From: Deltaproteobacteria bacterium
Lineage (GTDB): Bacteria > Desulfobacterota > Syntrophia > Syntrophales > UBA8958
Assembly: GCA_026388335.1 (NCBI GenBank)
Contig: JAPLJZ010000001.1
Span: 1-51,003, forward strand
Reading direction: 5' to 3'
DNA length: 51,003 nt
The notes beneath the pieces were generated by a model. It did not search any database. It was not told the DNA's origin and saw only the letters and a program-made list of their open reading frames with translations. The position numbers and the translations under genes are program-made. Below are positions 26,216 to 33,080 of this stretch, in pieces (the stretch's first letter is position 1; every line of letters begins with the position of its first letter).

Positions 26216-26352
26216 TTGGTAAAACCACAAAACCGATGTTATCTACTCAACAGATGCACATCGCCAGAATTACCGAAAAAAGGGCATCGCCATTAAAATC
26301 GGCCGATGAGGGTTTTCTCTGTTCCTTTGCAAACTTGTAAACATTTGTGACC

Positions 26353-27954
26353 ATGATTAAAGCTTTTTTGCTCCTCTGCGCCGGGATAACCCTGTTCCTC
26401 TTCGGCATGATGAAGCTCAGCGCCGGGATACAGAGTCTTTTTACCGCCCGGATCCGGGATTACATCAAGTACGCCGTCCAGCGCCCCTTTTTCGGACTGC
26501 TCACGGGGGCGGCAGCGACGGTCCTTTTTCAGAGCAGCTCTGCTACTACCGTCATCGCCGTGGGGATGGTCAGCGCCGGACTGATCAGCTTTTATAACTC
26601 TCTCGCCATTTTCCTCGGCGCCGACCTCGGCACTACGGTCATCGTCCAACTTGTCGTCTGGAAGATAACCGATGCCTCGCCCCTGTTTATTATCATGGGC
26701 GGGATTCTCTGGTTTACAGGTAAAGAAAAGTGGCAGGGAATAGGTGAATCGATCTTCTATTTCGGCCTTCTTTTTTTTGGATTGAGCCTGGTGGGCGATG
26801 CGACATTGCCCTTGAAGAATCATCCGGAAATCGTGGGGTTTTTCCGAAATACTCAACATCCTCTGACGGGGTTTGCCTTGTCCGCTCTCTTTACCGCCCT
26901 CGTGCATGCCTCGGCCATACCGATAAGCATTCTCGCCATCCTCGCCCAACAGGATCTGATCAGCCTCGACAACGCCCTGCCCATGGTGATCGGAGCTAAC
27001 GTCGGGACCACCGTCACGGCCCTCATGGCCGGGATGGTATCCGGCATCGGCGGGAAGCGAGCCGCCCTCTCCCATTTGTTTTTCAAGGCGGCGGGGGCCG
27101 TAGTCTGTATGGCCGCGTTGCCGGTCCTGATGAATGTGCTCAGGAACCTCTCGCCTAATGTGGCACAGCAGATTGCCCTGGGACATTTTATCTTTAATCT
27201 TATCATCGTGATCCTGTTCTTTCCCTTTATCCGCAATATTGCCCGTCTTCTGGAGAGACTCATTCCCGGCAAGGAAGAGGTGCTGCCCCTCTGGCCGGAG
27301 TTCTTAAGAGAAGAAATCCTCGCAGAACCGACGGCGGCCCTGGGAACCGTCGAAAAGGAATTGGCGCGGGAGATCCTGCTGGCAGAAAAGATGTTCGCCC
27401 TGACCACCCCTCTCTTACATGCCTACCACGAAGGCCGGAGAAGGGATGTCCTCTATATAGAGATGGTTGCCAATCATCTTCGTCACGAGATTGTCGAATA
27501 TCTGAGGAAGATATCATGCAATGAGCTGTCAGAAACCCTTTCCCAGAAGCTCTTTGCCTACACGGCCATGGCGGACGACATCGAACGGATGGGTAACCAT
27601 ATTGTCAGTTTCGTTGATCTTTCCCGGGAAAAATACTACCGGGAAATCGAGTTCACCCATGCTGCCGAGGAAGAGTTGGCGGACATCGAAAAACAGGTAA
27701 CCGCCAATATCACCGACGCGGGATCATTGATCCGGAAATATGATGGGGACAGAACGGCGGATGTATACCGCCGGGAAAATGATATTGACAACGCCGTCAA
27801 GGAGGCACGGGAAAAACATCTGGTCCGGTTTCATAAACGCCTTTGTCCGGCCGAGTCCGGACCGATTTTCATCGAGATGCTCATCCATCTGGAGCGGATT
27901 TCCGATCATTGCCAAAATATCGCCGAACATGTCGAAGATCTGCCGGTGAAATGA
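26353..27954 (+). CDS. Na/Pi cotransporter with C-terminal PhoU-like domain
   Basis: This is an inner-membrane phosphate transporter of the NptA/PNaS family. The roughly 533 residues contain the duplicated signature QSSSATTVIAVGMVSAGLI and IGANVGTTVTALMAG, and about eight or nine hydrophobic segments up to residue 310. A PhoU-type helical domain follows (about 340-530, with EMVANHLRHEI and HLERISDHCQNIAEHVED). An in-frame GTG at 26347 is an alternative start; neither has a clear ribosome binding site. No Pst genes are nearby. Confidence 0.92.
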   Translation: MIKAFLLLCAGITLFLFGMMKLSAGIQSLFTARIRDYIKYAVQRPFFGLLTGAAATVLFQSSSATTVIAVGMVSAGLISFYNSLAIFLGADLGTTVIVQLVVWKITDASPLFIIMGGILWFTGKEKWQGIGESIFYFGLLFFGLSLVGDATLPLKNHPEIVGFFRNTQHPLTGFALSALFTALVHASAIPISILAILAQQDLISLDNALPMVIGANVGTTVTALMAGMVSGIGGKRAALSHLFFKAAGAVVCMAALPVLMNVLRNLSPNVAQQIALGHFIFNLIIVILFFPFIRNIARLLERLIPGKEEVLPLWPEFLREEILAEPTAALGTVEKELAREILLAEKMFALTTPLLHAYHEGRRRDVLYIEMVANHLRHEIVEYLRKISCNELSETLSQKLFAYTAMADDIERMGNHIVSFVDLSREKYYREIEFTHAAEEELADIEKQVTANITDAGSLIRKYDGDRTADVYRRENDIDNAVKEAREKHLVRFHKRLCPAESGPIFIEMLIHLERISDHCQNIAEHVEDLPVK

Positions 27955-28698: not shown

Positions 28699-30105
28699 TT
28701 ATAGTTTTTTCACCCGGAGCATATTAGTCGTTCCCGCGCCGGTGACGGGGTGTCCCACCGTCATGACCACAAGATCGCCGGGTGCGGCCGCGCCGCTGTC
28801 CAAGGCGGCCCGGGCAGCGAGTTCGATCAAGTCATCTGTCCCCCGGGCTGCCCTGATCCGCATGGGGAGGCAACCCCAGACCAGGGCCAGACGGCGGAGG
28901 GTTCCCTCATTGGGCGTGAGGGCCACGATGGGCTGCCTGGGACGGAAACGGGAGATGTTCAGGGCGGTCAGCCCCGACTGCGTATGGGCGACAATGGCCC
29001 GGGCATCCAGGTGATCGGCGAGGATGCAGGAGGCATGGGCCACCGAATCGGGAACATCCCGCCGGGGCGTCTTTTTGAGATAGTCATTGTGGGGAAAGTT
29101 CCCCTCAGCCACCAGGGACAGTCGGTTCATGAACTGGACTGCCGCTAACGGATACCGCCCCGAGGCTGTCTCTTCGGAGAGCATAATCGCATCGGCGCCG
29201 TCGAGAATCGCATTTACCACATCCGTCACCTCGGCCCGGGTAGGGCGAGGTGAGTCCACCATGGATCGTAACATCTGTGTCGCCGTAATGACAGGTTTCC
29301 CGGCGGTATTGGCCATGTGGATTAAGCGTTTCTGAACCAGAGGGACTTCTTCGAGGGGAATCTCCACGCCCAGATCCCCCCGGGCCACCATGATTCCGTC
29401 GGCAGCGGTGACAATCTCTTCAATGTTCACCAGCGCCTCGTGCCGCTCGATCTTGGCGATAATCGGTGTTTGTTTGCCCCGTTCCGTAATCAATTCCCGG
29501 ACCCCTCTTATCTCCTCGGCGCTTTTCACGAAGGACAGGGCTACATAATCCACCCCGGCTTCCAGGCCGAAAAGGAGATCCACCCGGTCCTTCGCCGTAA
29601 AGGCAGGCGCCCGGATCGTCCCCGTGGGGAGGTTGATCCCTTTGTGAGATGTGAGGAGGCCGCCGGTAATGACGGTGCAGGTAATATCCGTGCCATCTGT
29701 TTCTTCCACAACCAGTTCCATTAGTCCATCCGCTAACATGATTCGGTCCCCTTTGTGTACCTCACGGGCCAGTTCGGGATAGGTCACTGAGACCCCTTCG
29801 CCGCCCTGGGCAACGGAACGGGCGGTAAGGATGAATGAACGACCTGCCTCCAGACGGATTCCCGGCTCGGGAACGAGGCCGATGCGGATCTTCGGCCCCC
29901 CCAGATCCTGGAGAATGGCCACCGTCCGTCCCTGTCGGCGGGCAGCGGCACGAATCCGGCGGATAAGGGTTTTGTGTTCCCCGTGAGTACCGTGGGAAAA
30001 GTTAAGGCGGGCCACATCCATGCCGGCGGCGATCAGGGCTTCCAGTATCCCGGGGGCCGCGCTCGCCGGCCCGATGGTGGCAATTATCTTTGTGCGACGC
30101 ATCAT
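28699..30105 (-). CDS. pyk: Pyruvate kinase
   Basis: It makes pyruvate and ATP from phosphoenolpyruvate and ADP, the last glycolytic step. The 468 residues contain the family motifs TKIIATIGPAS, ARLNFSHGTHGEH, LQDLGGPKIRIG, IIAKIERHEALVNIEEI and IMVARGDLGVEIP, then KPVITATQML and AIMLSEETASGRYP. The C-terminal domain is present but short, as in many bacterial forms. The start is one of two adjacent ATGs with CAGGTG upstream. The gene follows the acetolactate decarboxylase gene by 23 bases on the same strand, so they are probably an operon. Confidence 0.96.
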   Translation of the reverse strand: MMRRTKIIATIGPASAAPGILEALIAAGMDVARLNFSHGTHGEHKTLIRRIRAAARRQGRTVAILQDLGGPKIRIGLVPEPGIRLEAGRSFILTARSVAQGGEGVSVTYPELAREVHKGDRIMLADGLMELVVEETDGTDITCTVITGGLLTSHKGINLPTGTIRAPAFTAKDRVDLLFGLEAGVDYVALSFVKSAEEIRGVRELITERGKQTPIIAKIERHEALVNIEEIVTAADGIMVARGDLGVEIPLEEVPLVQKRLIHMANTAGKPVITATQMLRSMVDSPRPTRAEVTDVVNAILDGADAIMLSEETASGRYPLAAVQFMNRLSLVAEGNFPHNDYLKKTPRRDVPDSVAHASCILADHLDARAIVAHTQSGLTALNISRFRPRQPIVALTPNEGTLRRLALVWGCLPMRIRAARGTDDLIELAARAALDSGAAAPGDLVVMTVGHPVTGAGTTNMLRVKKL

Positions 30106-30128: not shown

Positions 30129-30947
30129 TTACCGCGGCAAGTTTGCCGTTAGATAATCAAGGGTCATGGGAAGATCTAATTTAAGCCGGTGAATGAACTG
30201 GATACCAATCTGCACGCGCTCGGTCTGACATTCATGGAGATGGCCGCCGTACTCGCGGCTGTCCGTGAGAAAATGCAGATGAAACCCGGGGAAATTCAGG
30301 GCACGGATGAATTTCGGCGTATAAAAACCGGCTAAAACACCATTGATATTTTCGTATTCAAAGACGGGACGGTTCTGTTCATCTTCGACAAGAGGTTGAT
30401 AATTCGGCTGTCTAGCGACGGACCATACCTTCACTTGTTTGAACAAGCCGTCGACGCGAATGGCATAGAGCATGTTATCTGAGGGCAGCAGGCGGTTCAA
30501 AATGGCATTGAACGCATTGAAATCGAGATTCTCCTCTATTTCTTCCACAACAGAAGGGCTATAGAAGGTCACGCAGGCAAAGGGGGTCTGAACATGATCA
30601 TCCACGGGATAAGTTTTTCCGTCGGCGTGCAGTTGATAGATGACGCCGTCAAGCATAACCATTTCCCCATCCAGGTTATTGAAGGTGCCCAGACCAAAAT
30701 CACCATGCTTCCTTAGATCCCCAAGAGTAGTGTTTTCTTCGTAAAAACCTTTCAGCATGGCATTGACCGGCGCGGAGAGATAGACCGAATTTATGCCCCG
30801 CTCATCTTTCATGTACTGAACCAGGGCTTTCTCTGTGAGTTGGGAAACGGAGTGGCCTGATTGCTGGGCAACGTGAAGAAGATCTCCGGCTAGCGGCCGA
30901 GGTATTGAAATATTCAGATTTTCGTAGTCCTTGCCATAATCCGGCAT
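30129..30947 (-). CDS. Acetolactate decarboxylase with ribbon-helix-helix-like N-terminal extension
   Basis: The enzyme converts alpha-acetolactate to acetoin. Residues about 52-272 match the BudA/AlsD family: GINSVYLSAPVNAMLKGFY, GDLRKHGDFGLGTFNNLDGE, DGVIYQLHADGK, and the zinc site GFHLHFLTDSREYGGH with H223, H225 and H236. That His spacing equals the family's. Residues about 9-48 are an added segment, a strand (NLNISIP) followed by two helices, which looks like a ribbon-helix-helix DNA-binding or dimerisation unit. The start has AAGGGGGG upstream. It precedes pyk by 23 bases. No acetolactate synthase is in the window. Confidence 0.85.
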   Translation of the reverse strand: MPDYGKDYENLNISIPRPLAGDLLHVAQQSGHSVSQLTEKALVQYMKDERGINSVYLSAPVNAMLKGFYEENTTLGDLRKHGDFGLGTFNNLDGEMVMLDGVIYQLHADGKTYPVDDHVQTPFACVTFYSPSVVEEIEENLDFNAFNAILNRLLPSDNMLYAIRVDGLFKQVKVWSVARQPNYQPLVEDEQNRPVFEYENINGVLAGFYTPKFIRALNFPGFHLHFLTDSREYGGHLHECQTERVQIGIQFIHRLKLDLPMTLDYLTANLPR

Positions 30948-30978: not shown

Positions 30979-30999
30979 CCCTCCCCTTGAAGGGGAGGG
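30979..30999. repeat. GC-rich palindrome of the CCTCCCC family
   Basis: CCCTCCCCTT and AAGGGGAGGG are inverted around a central G. TTAACCCATCCTCACCCTGG precedes it, similar to the reverse complement of the sequence beside the 18397 copy. It lies upstream of the acetolactate decarboxylase gene and downstream of the ABC-F gene, both on the minus strand. Confidence 0.65.
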
Positions 31000-31079: not shown

Positions 31080-33080
31080 TCAAGATAATATATTATCTTC
31101 CATGGCCATCGTCAGCTCGTGCCAACGGTCGTACGACTGTTCGATTTCCTTCTCCAGATCTTTGAGGTCCCGGTGGGTCTGTTTGATTCTTTCCGGTTCC
31201 CGGTGGCTGAGGGGATTGCAGAGAAACGATTCTCCCTCCGCCTTCCTGCCTTCCAGGGCGGCGATGCTCTTTTCTACGGCGTGAAGCTCTTTTTTCAGTC
31301 CCTGATTGATCCTGGCCAGGCGCTGGCGCTCTTCCGCCTCCCGGCGCTTGTCTTCCCTGGTCTTGTAGGCGCTTTTGCCCTCCGCCGCCGGGGTATCCGG
31401 TGGTTTTTCGTTCTGCCCTGCTGCGGCCCTTCTCTCCTCCGCCAATGATTGCCGCTTCTCGATAAAATAGGAATAATTACCAGGATATTCAATACATTCG
31501 CCGTCCCTCAGTTCAAAGACGCGATTGACGAGGTGGTCAAGGAAATAACGGTCATGGGACACGAGGACAACGGTTCCTTGATAGGACAGCAAGGCATTCT
31601 GGAAAATATCTTTGGTTTTGAAATCCAGGTGATTGGTAGGTTCGTCGAGGATTAAGAGGTTTGTTTCCTGGAGAAGGATCTTCAGCAGGGCCAGCCGCGA
31701 CTTTTCTCCTCCCGAGAGGACGGAGACGGGCTTGTGGATGTCATCGCCGGAAAAGAGAAAGGCCCCGAGGAGGTTGCGCCTTTCCCGGTCATTGCTCCGG
31801 GAGGCGACCTCCATCGTTTCTTCCCAGATCGTCCGGTCATAACGAAGATTTTCCGCGCTTTCCTGGGAAAAGAATGCCATGTGCACATTGAGACCGGAGC
31901 GGATTTCCCCTGCCGAAGGCGCTTCCACCTGGCCGAGAATCCGGGACAGCGTCGATTTACCCGAGCCGTTGACGCCGACGAGGGCTACCCGCTCTCCCCG
32001 CTGGAGGGAGAAGCTGACCTCCCGGAAAATCTCCTGGGTTCCGTAAGATTTGGCAAGCTTATTGACAAAGAGGACCTCTTTCCCGCTTTTCGGCCCGGCG
32101 GGGAAACGGATCTTGACCGTTTTACCATGTCCTTCGGCACGCAGGGGGGCGAATTTTTCGAGCATCCGGACCCGGCTCTGCACCTGTTTGGCTTTGGTGG
32201 CCTTGAAGCGGAACCGTTCGATGAATTCCTCGGTCTTTTTGATCTCCCCCTGCTGGAGGAGCCGTTCTTTTTCCAGGGCCGCCAAGCGCTTTTCCTTCTC
32301 CAGGAGATAATAGGAGTAGTTGCCCTTGTAGACCGCCAAACGACCCTGGGAGATTTCCGCGATGGTTGTTGCCATCTTGTCCAGGAAAAAGCGATCGTGG
32401 GCGACGGTGATCAGGGTCCCCGGATAGTCTTTCAAATAGCTTTCCAGCCATTCCATGCTTTCCGTATCGAGGTGGTTCGTCGGTTCATCGAGGAGCATGA
32501 TGTCGGGTTGAGACAGGAGAATGACGGCCAGGAGGATGCGCATCTTCCACCCTCCGGAAAACTCGTCGCACTGCTTGAGAAAATCCTGTTCCCCGAATCC
32601 GAACCCCTTGAGAACCTGTTTGGCCCTCGCCTCGAAGGCGTAGCCCTCTTTGGCCTGATAGACGGCGACAATCCGGTCATATTCCCGCAGGAGCTTTTCG
32701 CGCCTCGCTCCGGTCTCGGATAATCCTTCCCCTTCTGGGGGGTGGGCCGGCAGAGCGGCGACCAGTTTTTCGCAATTACGCATCCCGTTTTCTAATTCCG
32801 TCAGGCCGCAACGGTTTTTCAGATATTCCATGAGGGGAACAGGTTCGATTTCCACGAGATCCTGGGGGAGATAGGCGATGGCTCTGTTTTTCCGGTCCGG
32901 GATATCGATCGTCCCCCCGTCCAACTCCACCATGCCGAGGATTGTCTTCAATAAGGTGGTCTTTCCGGCGCCGTTGTCACCCACCAAGCCAATCCGGCTC
33001 CGTTCCGTAATTGGCCAGGTCCAATCCTCAAACAGGGTACGGTCGCCGAAGGCCAGACTGATATTTTTCAGATAGATCAA
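31080..33080 (-). CDS. ABC-F family ATP-binding protein
   Basis: ABC-F proteins are soluble ATPases without membrane domains that act on ribosomes in translation control or antibiotic protection. The 666 residues hold two nucleotide-binding domains. The first has GDNGAGKTTLLK, FSGGWKMR and MLLDEPTNHLD; the second has GVNGSGKSTLSR, LSGGEKSRLAL and LILDEPTNHLD. The inter-domain linker (about 245-310) is the P-site contacting region. A C-terminal coiled coil (about 570-660) follows a Pro/Ala-rich hinge, as in Uup/YheS-like members. The subfamily is not certain. Confidence 0.94.
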   Translation of the reverse strand: MIYLKNISLAFGDRTLFEDWTWPITERSRIGLVGDNGAGKTTLLKTILGMVELDGGTIDIPDRKNRAIAYLPQDLVEIEPVPLMEYLKNRCGLTELENGMRNCEKLVAALPAHPPEGEGLSETGARREKLLREYDRIVAVYQAKEGYAFEARAKQVLKGFGFGEQDFLKQCDEFSGGWKMRILLAVILLSQPDIMLLDEPTNHLDTESMEWLESYLKDYPGTLITVAHDRFFLDKMATTIAEISQGRLAVYKGNYSYYLLEKEKRLAALEKERLLQQGEIKKTEEFIERFRFKATKAKQVQSRVRMLEKFAPLRAEGHGKTVKIRFPAGPKSGKEVLFVNKLAKSYGTQEIFREVSFSLQRGERVALVGVNGSGKSTLSRILGQVEAPSAGEIRSGLNVHMAFFSQESAENLRYDRTIWEETMEVASRSNDRERRNLLGAFLFSGDDIHKPVSVLSGGEKSRLALLKILLQETNLLILDEPTNHLDFKTKDIFQNALLSYQGTVVLVSHDRYFLDHLVNRVFELRDGECIEYPGNYSYFIEKRQSLAEERRAAAGQNEKPPDTPAAEGKSAYKTREDKRREAEERQRLARINQGLKKELHAVEKSIAALEGRKAEGESFLCNPLSHREPERIKQTHRDLKDLEKEIEQSYDRWHELTMAMEDNILS

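Follow-up and report, generated by a model that had tools for sequence, protein, structure and literature searches.

A ribbon-helix-helix domain joined to an acetolactate decarboxylase fold: a possible PutA-like regulator in Syntrophales

PutA is the textbook case of an enzyme that contains a ribbon-helix-helix (RHH) domain and is the repressor of its own genes. Its N-terminal RHH domain dimerises the enzyme and also binds DNA, so that the enzyme acts as repressor of its own regulon (PMC5293562); RHH proteins use their strands to read major-groove bases, and place the N-terminus of helix B on the phosphates (PMC2812701). The combination of an enzyme with an RHH domain therefore has a precedent in PutA. 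The gene described here lies in a Syntrophales genome, on contig JAPLJZ010000001.1, within the window, by which we mean the whole stretch of 51,003 nucleotides that was analysed. Its product resembles PutA in bearing an N-terminal RHH segment on a metabolic-enzyme fold, and RHH chains of PutA are among the structure matches to this segment; it differs from PutA in that both the enzyme and the fold are other ones, and in that its catalytic residues are altered.

Three further groups of proteins invite comparison. With the acetolactate decarboxylases (ALDCs) AldC, AlsD and BudA (PF03306, TIGR01252) the window protein shares the fold (6inc, 5xne, 4bt2), the zinc histidines and the first Glu, whereas the additional RHH segment, a Trp in place of an active-site Arg and the missing C-terminal Glu tail set it apart. 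With RHH proteins of the CopG/Arc/EndoAI type it has in common the strand-helix-helix order, the hydrophobic alternation and a G-x-S turn before helix B; in contrast to these proteins, its RHH is fused to a metabolite-enzyme fold of 220 residues and has no toxin partner, and across the family of such fusions (RHH-ALDCs) the DNA-contact strand is not conserved. Plant PPC/DUF296 proteins carry an AT-hook, and thus also join a similar fold to a DNA-binding element. Proteins of this PD1-like group give a weaker fold match to the catalytic domain (2dt4, E 1.8e-4; 3hwu, E 3.1e-4), but their DNA-binding element is a different one and their identity to the window domain is only 11-13%. The initial annotation knew of no described case; in the literature we found, with subscription journals thinly covered, no published account of an ALDC joined to an RHH, CopG or other DNA-binding domain, so that the fusion is apparently undescribed.

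The fusion gene and its N-terminal domain

The RHH-ALDC gene, whose product has 272 amino acids, occupies the minus strand at 30129-30947; it coincides exactly with the open reading frame reported initially and has matches in both Pfam and NCBIfam. A pyruvate kinase gene (pyk, 28699-30105, minus strand; Pfam PK) follows in the same direction, 23 nt past the RHH-ALDC stop. Upstream, again in the same direction, lies a gene at 31080-33080 (minus strand) that was named by its sequence as an ABC-F type ATPase, with 132 nt between its end and the start of the RHH-ALDC gene. The order ABC-F, RHH-ALDC, pyk is retained in two congeneric genomes (L023 and L024), and in the L024 orthologue an AGGAGG motif immediately precedes the same ATG, indicating that the annotated start M1 is probably real.

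Further out, a Na/Pi cotransporter with a PhoU domain is encoded at 26347-27954, close to the RHH-ALDC gene, and homologues of it occur near the RHH-ALDCs of L025, L035 and L051 and near none of the RHH-free loci among those examined. At five loci (L030, L034, L035, L044 and L051), from delta-, zeta- and gammaproteobacteria, the ALDC gene is adjoined by partner-switching genes, namely a STAS antagonist, a HATPase_c_2 anti-sigma-like kinase and a SpoIIE phosphatase. STAS genes are also found near some RHH-free ALDCs (L045, L056, L071), and we rejected the partner-switching genes as RHH-specific neighbours because they are in part also found near RHH-free ALDCs. In all, the neighbourhoods of RHH-bearing and RHH-free ALDC loci yielded no single conserved neighbour tied to the RHH segment.

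The segment that precedes the catalytic domain had been described as RHH-like and estimated at about 40 residues. The length is closer to 55, since the Pfam AAL_decarboxy match covers residues 56-270. Within the segment, residues 11-50 or thereabouts (30798-30917, minus strand; strand 11-15, helix A 17-30, helix B 34-50) are, judging by profile searches, Pfam RHH_1/RHH_5 matches, an AF2 model, Foldseek and codon substitution rates, a true RHH domain. Taken alone, the window segment matches RHH_5 weakly (E 0.028, below the Pfam cut-off). In a set of 29 sequences, comprising this segment and 28 homologous ones, 14 individually match RHH_1, with a best E of 1.1e-6, and a search with the profile built from all 29 is topped by solved RHH proteins, namely the EndoAI antitoxin (1.5e-5), StnY (7e-4), CopG (1.2e-3) and MazE6 (1.5e-3), with PutA lower in the list of matches. 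The AF2 monomer model is extended or coil over residues 1-16 and shows the helix pattern typical of RHH dimers, with helices at 17-30 and 34-50 (pLDDT about 75-85 there); the strand appears as coil in the monomer, as expected without the partner subunit. Foldseek retrieves mostly RHH proteins with this model, among them Arc, ORF56, StnY, CopASO, CopG and PutA, many at an rmsd of 0.8-1.4 Å and all, for so short a chain, with E above 0.2. The model thus resembles RHH chains such as those of Arc, CopG and PutA, which bears out the RHH reading of the initial annotation. Among the three closest orthologues, dN/dS is 0.19-0.27 over the RHH codons, 0.08-0.10 over the catalytic codons and about 0.9-1.5 over the first nine codons, indicating that both the RHH and the catalytic part are maintained.

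The decarboxylase domain and its active site

The acetolactate-decarboxylase-like domain (residues 56-270; 30138-30782, minus strand) exceeds the curated cut-offs of both PF03306, which it matches with an E of 7e-72, and TIGR01252, for which it scores 229.7 bits against an equivalog cut-off of 180.65 bits. We compared its residues with those of the B. brevis enzyme (4bt2, whose chain numbering was verified for E65, R145, H194, H196, H207 and E253) in an alignment of 122 rows, some of them near-duplicates. The zinc site H223, H225 and H236 (30240-30281, minus strand), previously noted as intact, is present and invariant in relatives, and Glu95 (30663-30665, minus strand), the equivalent of Glu65, is kept as well. 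Two departures from the family had gone unnoticed in the initial annotation: Trp175 (30423-30425, minus strand) replaces the near-universal active-site Arg equivalent to Arg145, and an early stop (30129-30137, minus strand) leaves the protein, like the rest of its clade, without the C-terminal tail that contains the near-universal Glu253. We take Arg145 and Glu253 to be active-site residues of the B. brevis enzyme. The complete set E-R-H-H-H-E is retained in 106 of the 122 rows, and the Arg by itself in 107. The combination E-W-H-H-H without a tail is found in 13 rows, two of which are one and the same sequence, and all 13 fall into a single clade, that of the window protein (support 99/96). 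L006, truncated by a contig end, was assigned to this clade by its residues. Two members of the clade (L037/L103 and L104) have no RHH segment, so the altered ALDC domain works without RHH too.

The same genome encodes a second ALDC (L019, on contig 19), which has all six catalytic residues and no RHH segment. Given this normal, RHH-free paralogue and the exchange of Arg for Trp together with the loss of the tail, it is probably the paralogue, and not the window protein, that serves the cell as ordinary acetolactate decarboxylase, although purifying selection on the window domain is strong. The earlier description of the window protein as a metabolic enzyme is doubtful, its intact zinc site notwithstanding. 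As the clade passes the equivalog cut-off, its members would be annotated as acetoin-making, perhaps wrongly.

A separate departure from the canonical active site is seen in two triple fusions of a SulP sulfate permease, a STAS domain and an ALDC (L176, G593:C32; L177, G559:C196), from gammaproteobacterial genomes of the Chromatiaceae order. Their ALDC parts have none of the zinc histidines and no Arg (D-S-Q-S-R-G and D-C-Q-Y-R-G at the six positions) and thus look like pseudoenzymes, perhaps serving as a sensor on the transporter.

Distribution and history of the fusion

An HMM of the RHH segments separates ALDCs without overlap into those with an RHH segment (at least 26 bits) and those without (at most 10.5 bits). 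The initial annotation had raised the question of whether related genomes contain the same fusion, and we find 40 RHH-bearing relatives, spanning Thermodesulfobacteriota, Gamma- and Zetaproteobacteria and Cyanobacteria. The fusion occurs in Syntrophales, Syntrophobacteraceae, Syntrophorhabdus, Chromatiaceae, Thioalkalivibrio and one zetaproteobacterium, and in 11 of 11 cytoplasmic cyanobacterial ALDCs examined. L085 and L089 were rejected as RHH-bearing, their N-terminal matches having crossed stop codons; L090 proved RHH-plus on recheck, though its apparent N-terminal match crossed stop codons as well.

A tree built from the catalytic domains of 120 rows places every one of the 40 RHH-bearing proteins in a single clade (support 100/98), which comprises 98 cytoplasmic ALDCs, and none of the exported, signal-peptide-bearing ALDCs sampled outside this clade carries an RHH segment. 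For these reasons, a single old fusion followed by repeated loss looks like the simplest history. The presence of RHH on the tree requires at least 8 changes, 6 of them forced by well-supported branches, compared to 33.7 when the character is shuffled; repeated gain of RHH by ALDCs would be a conceivable alternative.

A candidate operator and possible functions

The upstream region contains a perfect 18-bp palindrome, AAGATAATATATTATCTT (31082-31099), which overlaps the last codons of the ABC-F gene. Within the window no other perfect palindrome reaches 16 bp, the expected count for 18-bp palindromes being 0.21 per shuffled window, and the 18-bp sequence is present in a single copy in each of four congeneric genomes when up to two mismatches are allowed; at the same tolerance, no further copies that would point to a regulon were found in the genome. 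At this end of the ABC-F gene the palindrome runs through three consecutive rare codons, ATA-TTA-TCT (usage 6-10% within their families), and it is situated in coding sequence where close relatives are highly conserved anyway. A weak promoter-like match, CTGACG-17-TATATT (31087-31115, minus strand; 9 of 12 positions), has its -10 element inside the palindrome. The palindrome is absent at the next sister locus, L025. Comparing the best palindromes of 30 RHH-plus with those of 35 RHH-minus upstream regions, we found no operator common to RHH-bearing genes and no clear enrichment, and so rejected a shared operator across the RHH-bearing lineages. Within the window genus, the palindrome is a good candidate operator, and a factor other than the RHH-ALDC protein could also be its user. 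The strongest inverted repeat directly upstream, the near-perfect 10-bp repeat CCCTCCCCTTCAAGGGGAGGG at 30979-30999, lies between the ABC-F gene and aldC and occurs once in the window; it looks like a small inserted repeat, and we discarded it as an operator because L023 and L024 both lack it upstream.

In one congeneric genome (G007), the operon is decaying and the palindrome is identical. The locus there (L016, G007:C262) has its ALDC catalytic domain deleted, leaving an RHH remnant of 64 codons with a proline in helix B, and the reading frames of pyk and ABC-F are broken too; this may reflect an assembly error.

Our best explanation, which we put forward tentatively and at slightly less than an even chance, is that in the window lineage the PutA-like enzyme/RHH fusion is a dimeric regulator that responds to a ligand and acts on its own aldC-pyk operon. 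An old fusion would have combined a CopG/Arc-type RHH domain with a cytoplasmic ALDC fold, and pairing of the RHH segments of two subunits would yield a dimer with the ALDC-fold lobes on either side. Since the ALDC part of the window lineage lacks both the Arg on the substrate side and the C-terminal Glu while keeping the zinc site, we infer a loss of catalysis: most likely the domain binds, but does not normally turn over, a small metabolite that is either acetolactate-like or a different 2-keto or hydroxy acid. The bound ligand would then alter how the RHH dimer is spaced or ordered, causing its release from the upstream 18-bp palindrome and thereby switching transcription of aldC-pyk. That the protein is a decarboxylase turned one-component transcription factor, in which the disabled pocket, still containing zinc, senses a ligand and so governs how the RHH binds the palindrome of its own operon, is possible, if on the doubtful side.

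The main rival, which we consider somewhat unlikely, assigns to the RHH segment a role in dimerisation or stability only, DNA binding having been lost from a cytoplasmic enzyme with changed activity. The contact strand bears on both readings. In the window protein it comprises residues 10-16 (N-L-N-I-S-I-P; 30900-30920, minus strand), and alignment with CopG and EndoAI marks N10, N12 and S14 as the would-be DNA-contact positions. All three are polar, the strand has no basic residue, and the net charge of the RHH segment is -2. Against a role confined to dimerisation, the strands of the window clade and of the Cyanobacteria alternate hydrophobic with polar or basic residues (N/N/S, S/R, H/N, R/K, H/R), as they do in DNA-binding RHH proteins, the cyanobacterial residues being H/N, R/K, H/R, H/K or R/N; the conserved palindrome, which in the window genus sits where an operator would be expected, points the same way. 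Such a role is favoured by the contact positions of sister lineages, which read E/E/L in Syntrophorhabdus, K/E/F in L027, T/A/F in L030 and elsewhere G/P/M, by the Thioalkalivibrio proteins, in which the strand is lost and both helices are kept, by the neutral or acidic character of most RHH segments across the family, and by the lack of an operator common to the lineages. In PutA, moreover, the RHH suffices by itself for dimerisation (PMC5293562). Because the contact residues differ in this way and RHH strands read the major groove, DNA binding seems credible in some RHH-ALDC lineages and unlikely in others; a purely dimerising role, the alternative named in the initial annotation, is likelier in sister lineages with Glu, Leu or Phe at the contact positions or without the strand, while DNA binding by the window protein is plausible.

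We regard it as distinctly improbable that the protein is a true bifunctional enzyme-repressor in the manner of PutA, that is, a working decarboxylase, perhaps for another substrate, which at low substrate levels represses its own gene. The invariance of the zinc site and Glu95 and the very low dN/dS of the catalytic domain would suit such a protein, as would the 31 rows outside the window clade that combine the full residue set with an attached RHH, some of them adjoining an acetolactate synthase gene (L030, L036); the adjacent pyruvate kinase gene fits pyruvate metabolism. The exchange of Arg for Trp and the loss of the Glu tail, however, occur together and in exactly the window clade.

That translation starts at M46, the N-terminal segment being an in-frame extension without meaning, is scarcely credible: the weak Pfam score of the segment alone and the paralogue without it would agree with such a late start, which had been considered in the initial annotation, but residues 10-50 are under purifying selection, the segment is conserved down to orthologues at 55% identity and beyond, M46 is a Leu in orthologues and a good ribosome site stands ahead of M1 in L024.

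If the ligand-responsive regulator proposed for the window lineage is real, it would constitute an independent, older and wider example of the PutA style in acetoin and acetolactate metabolism, meaning that this design arose more than once. The lineages with a full catalytic set and the window clade would then provide a natural series that starts with an enzyme, passes through an enzyme-repressor and ends with a pure sensor.
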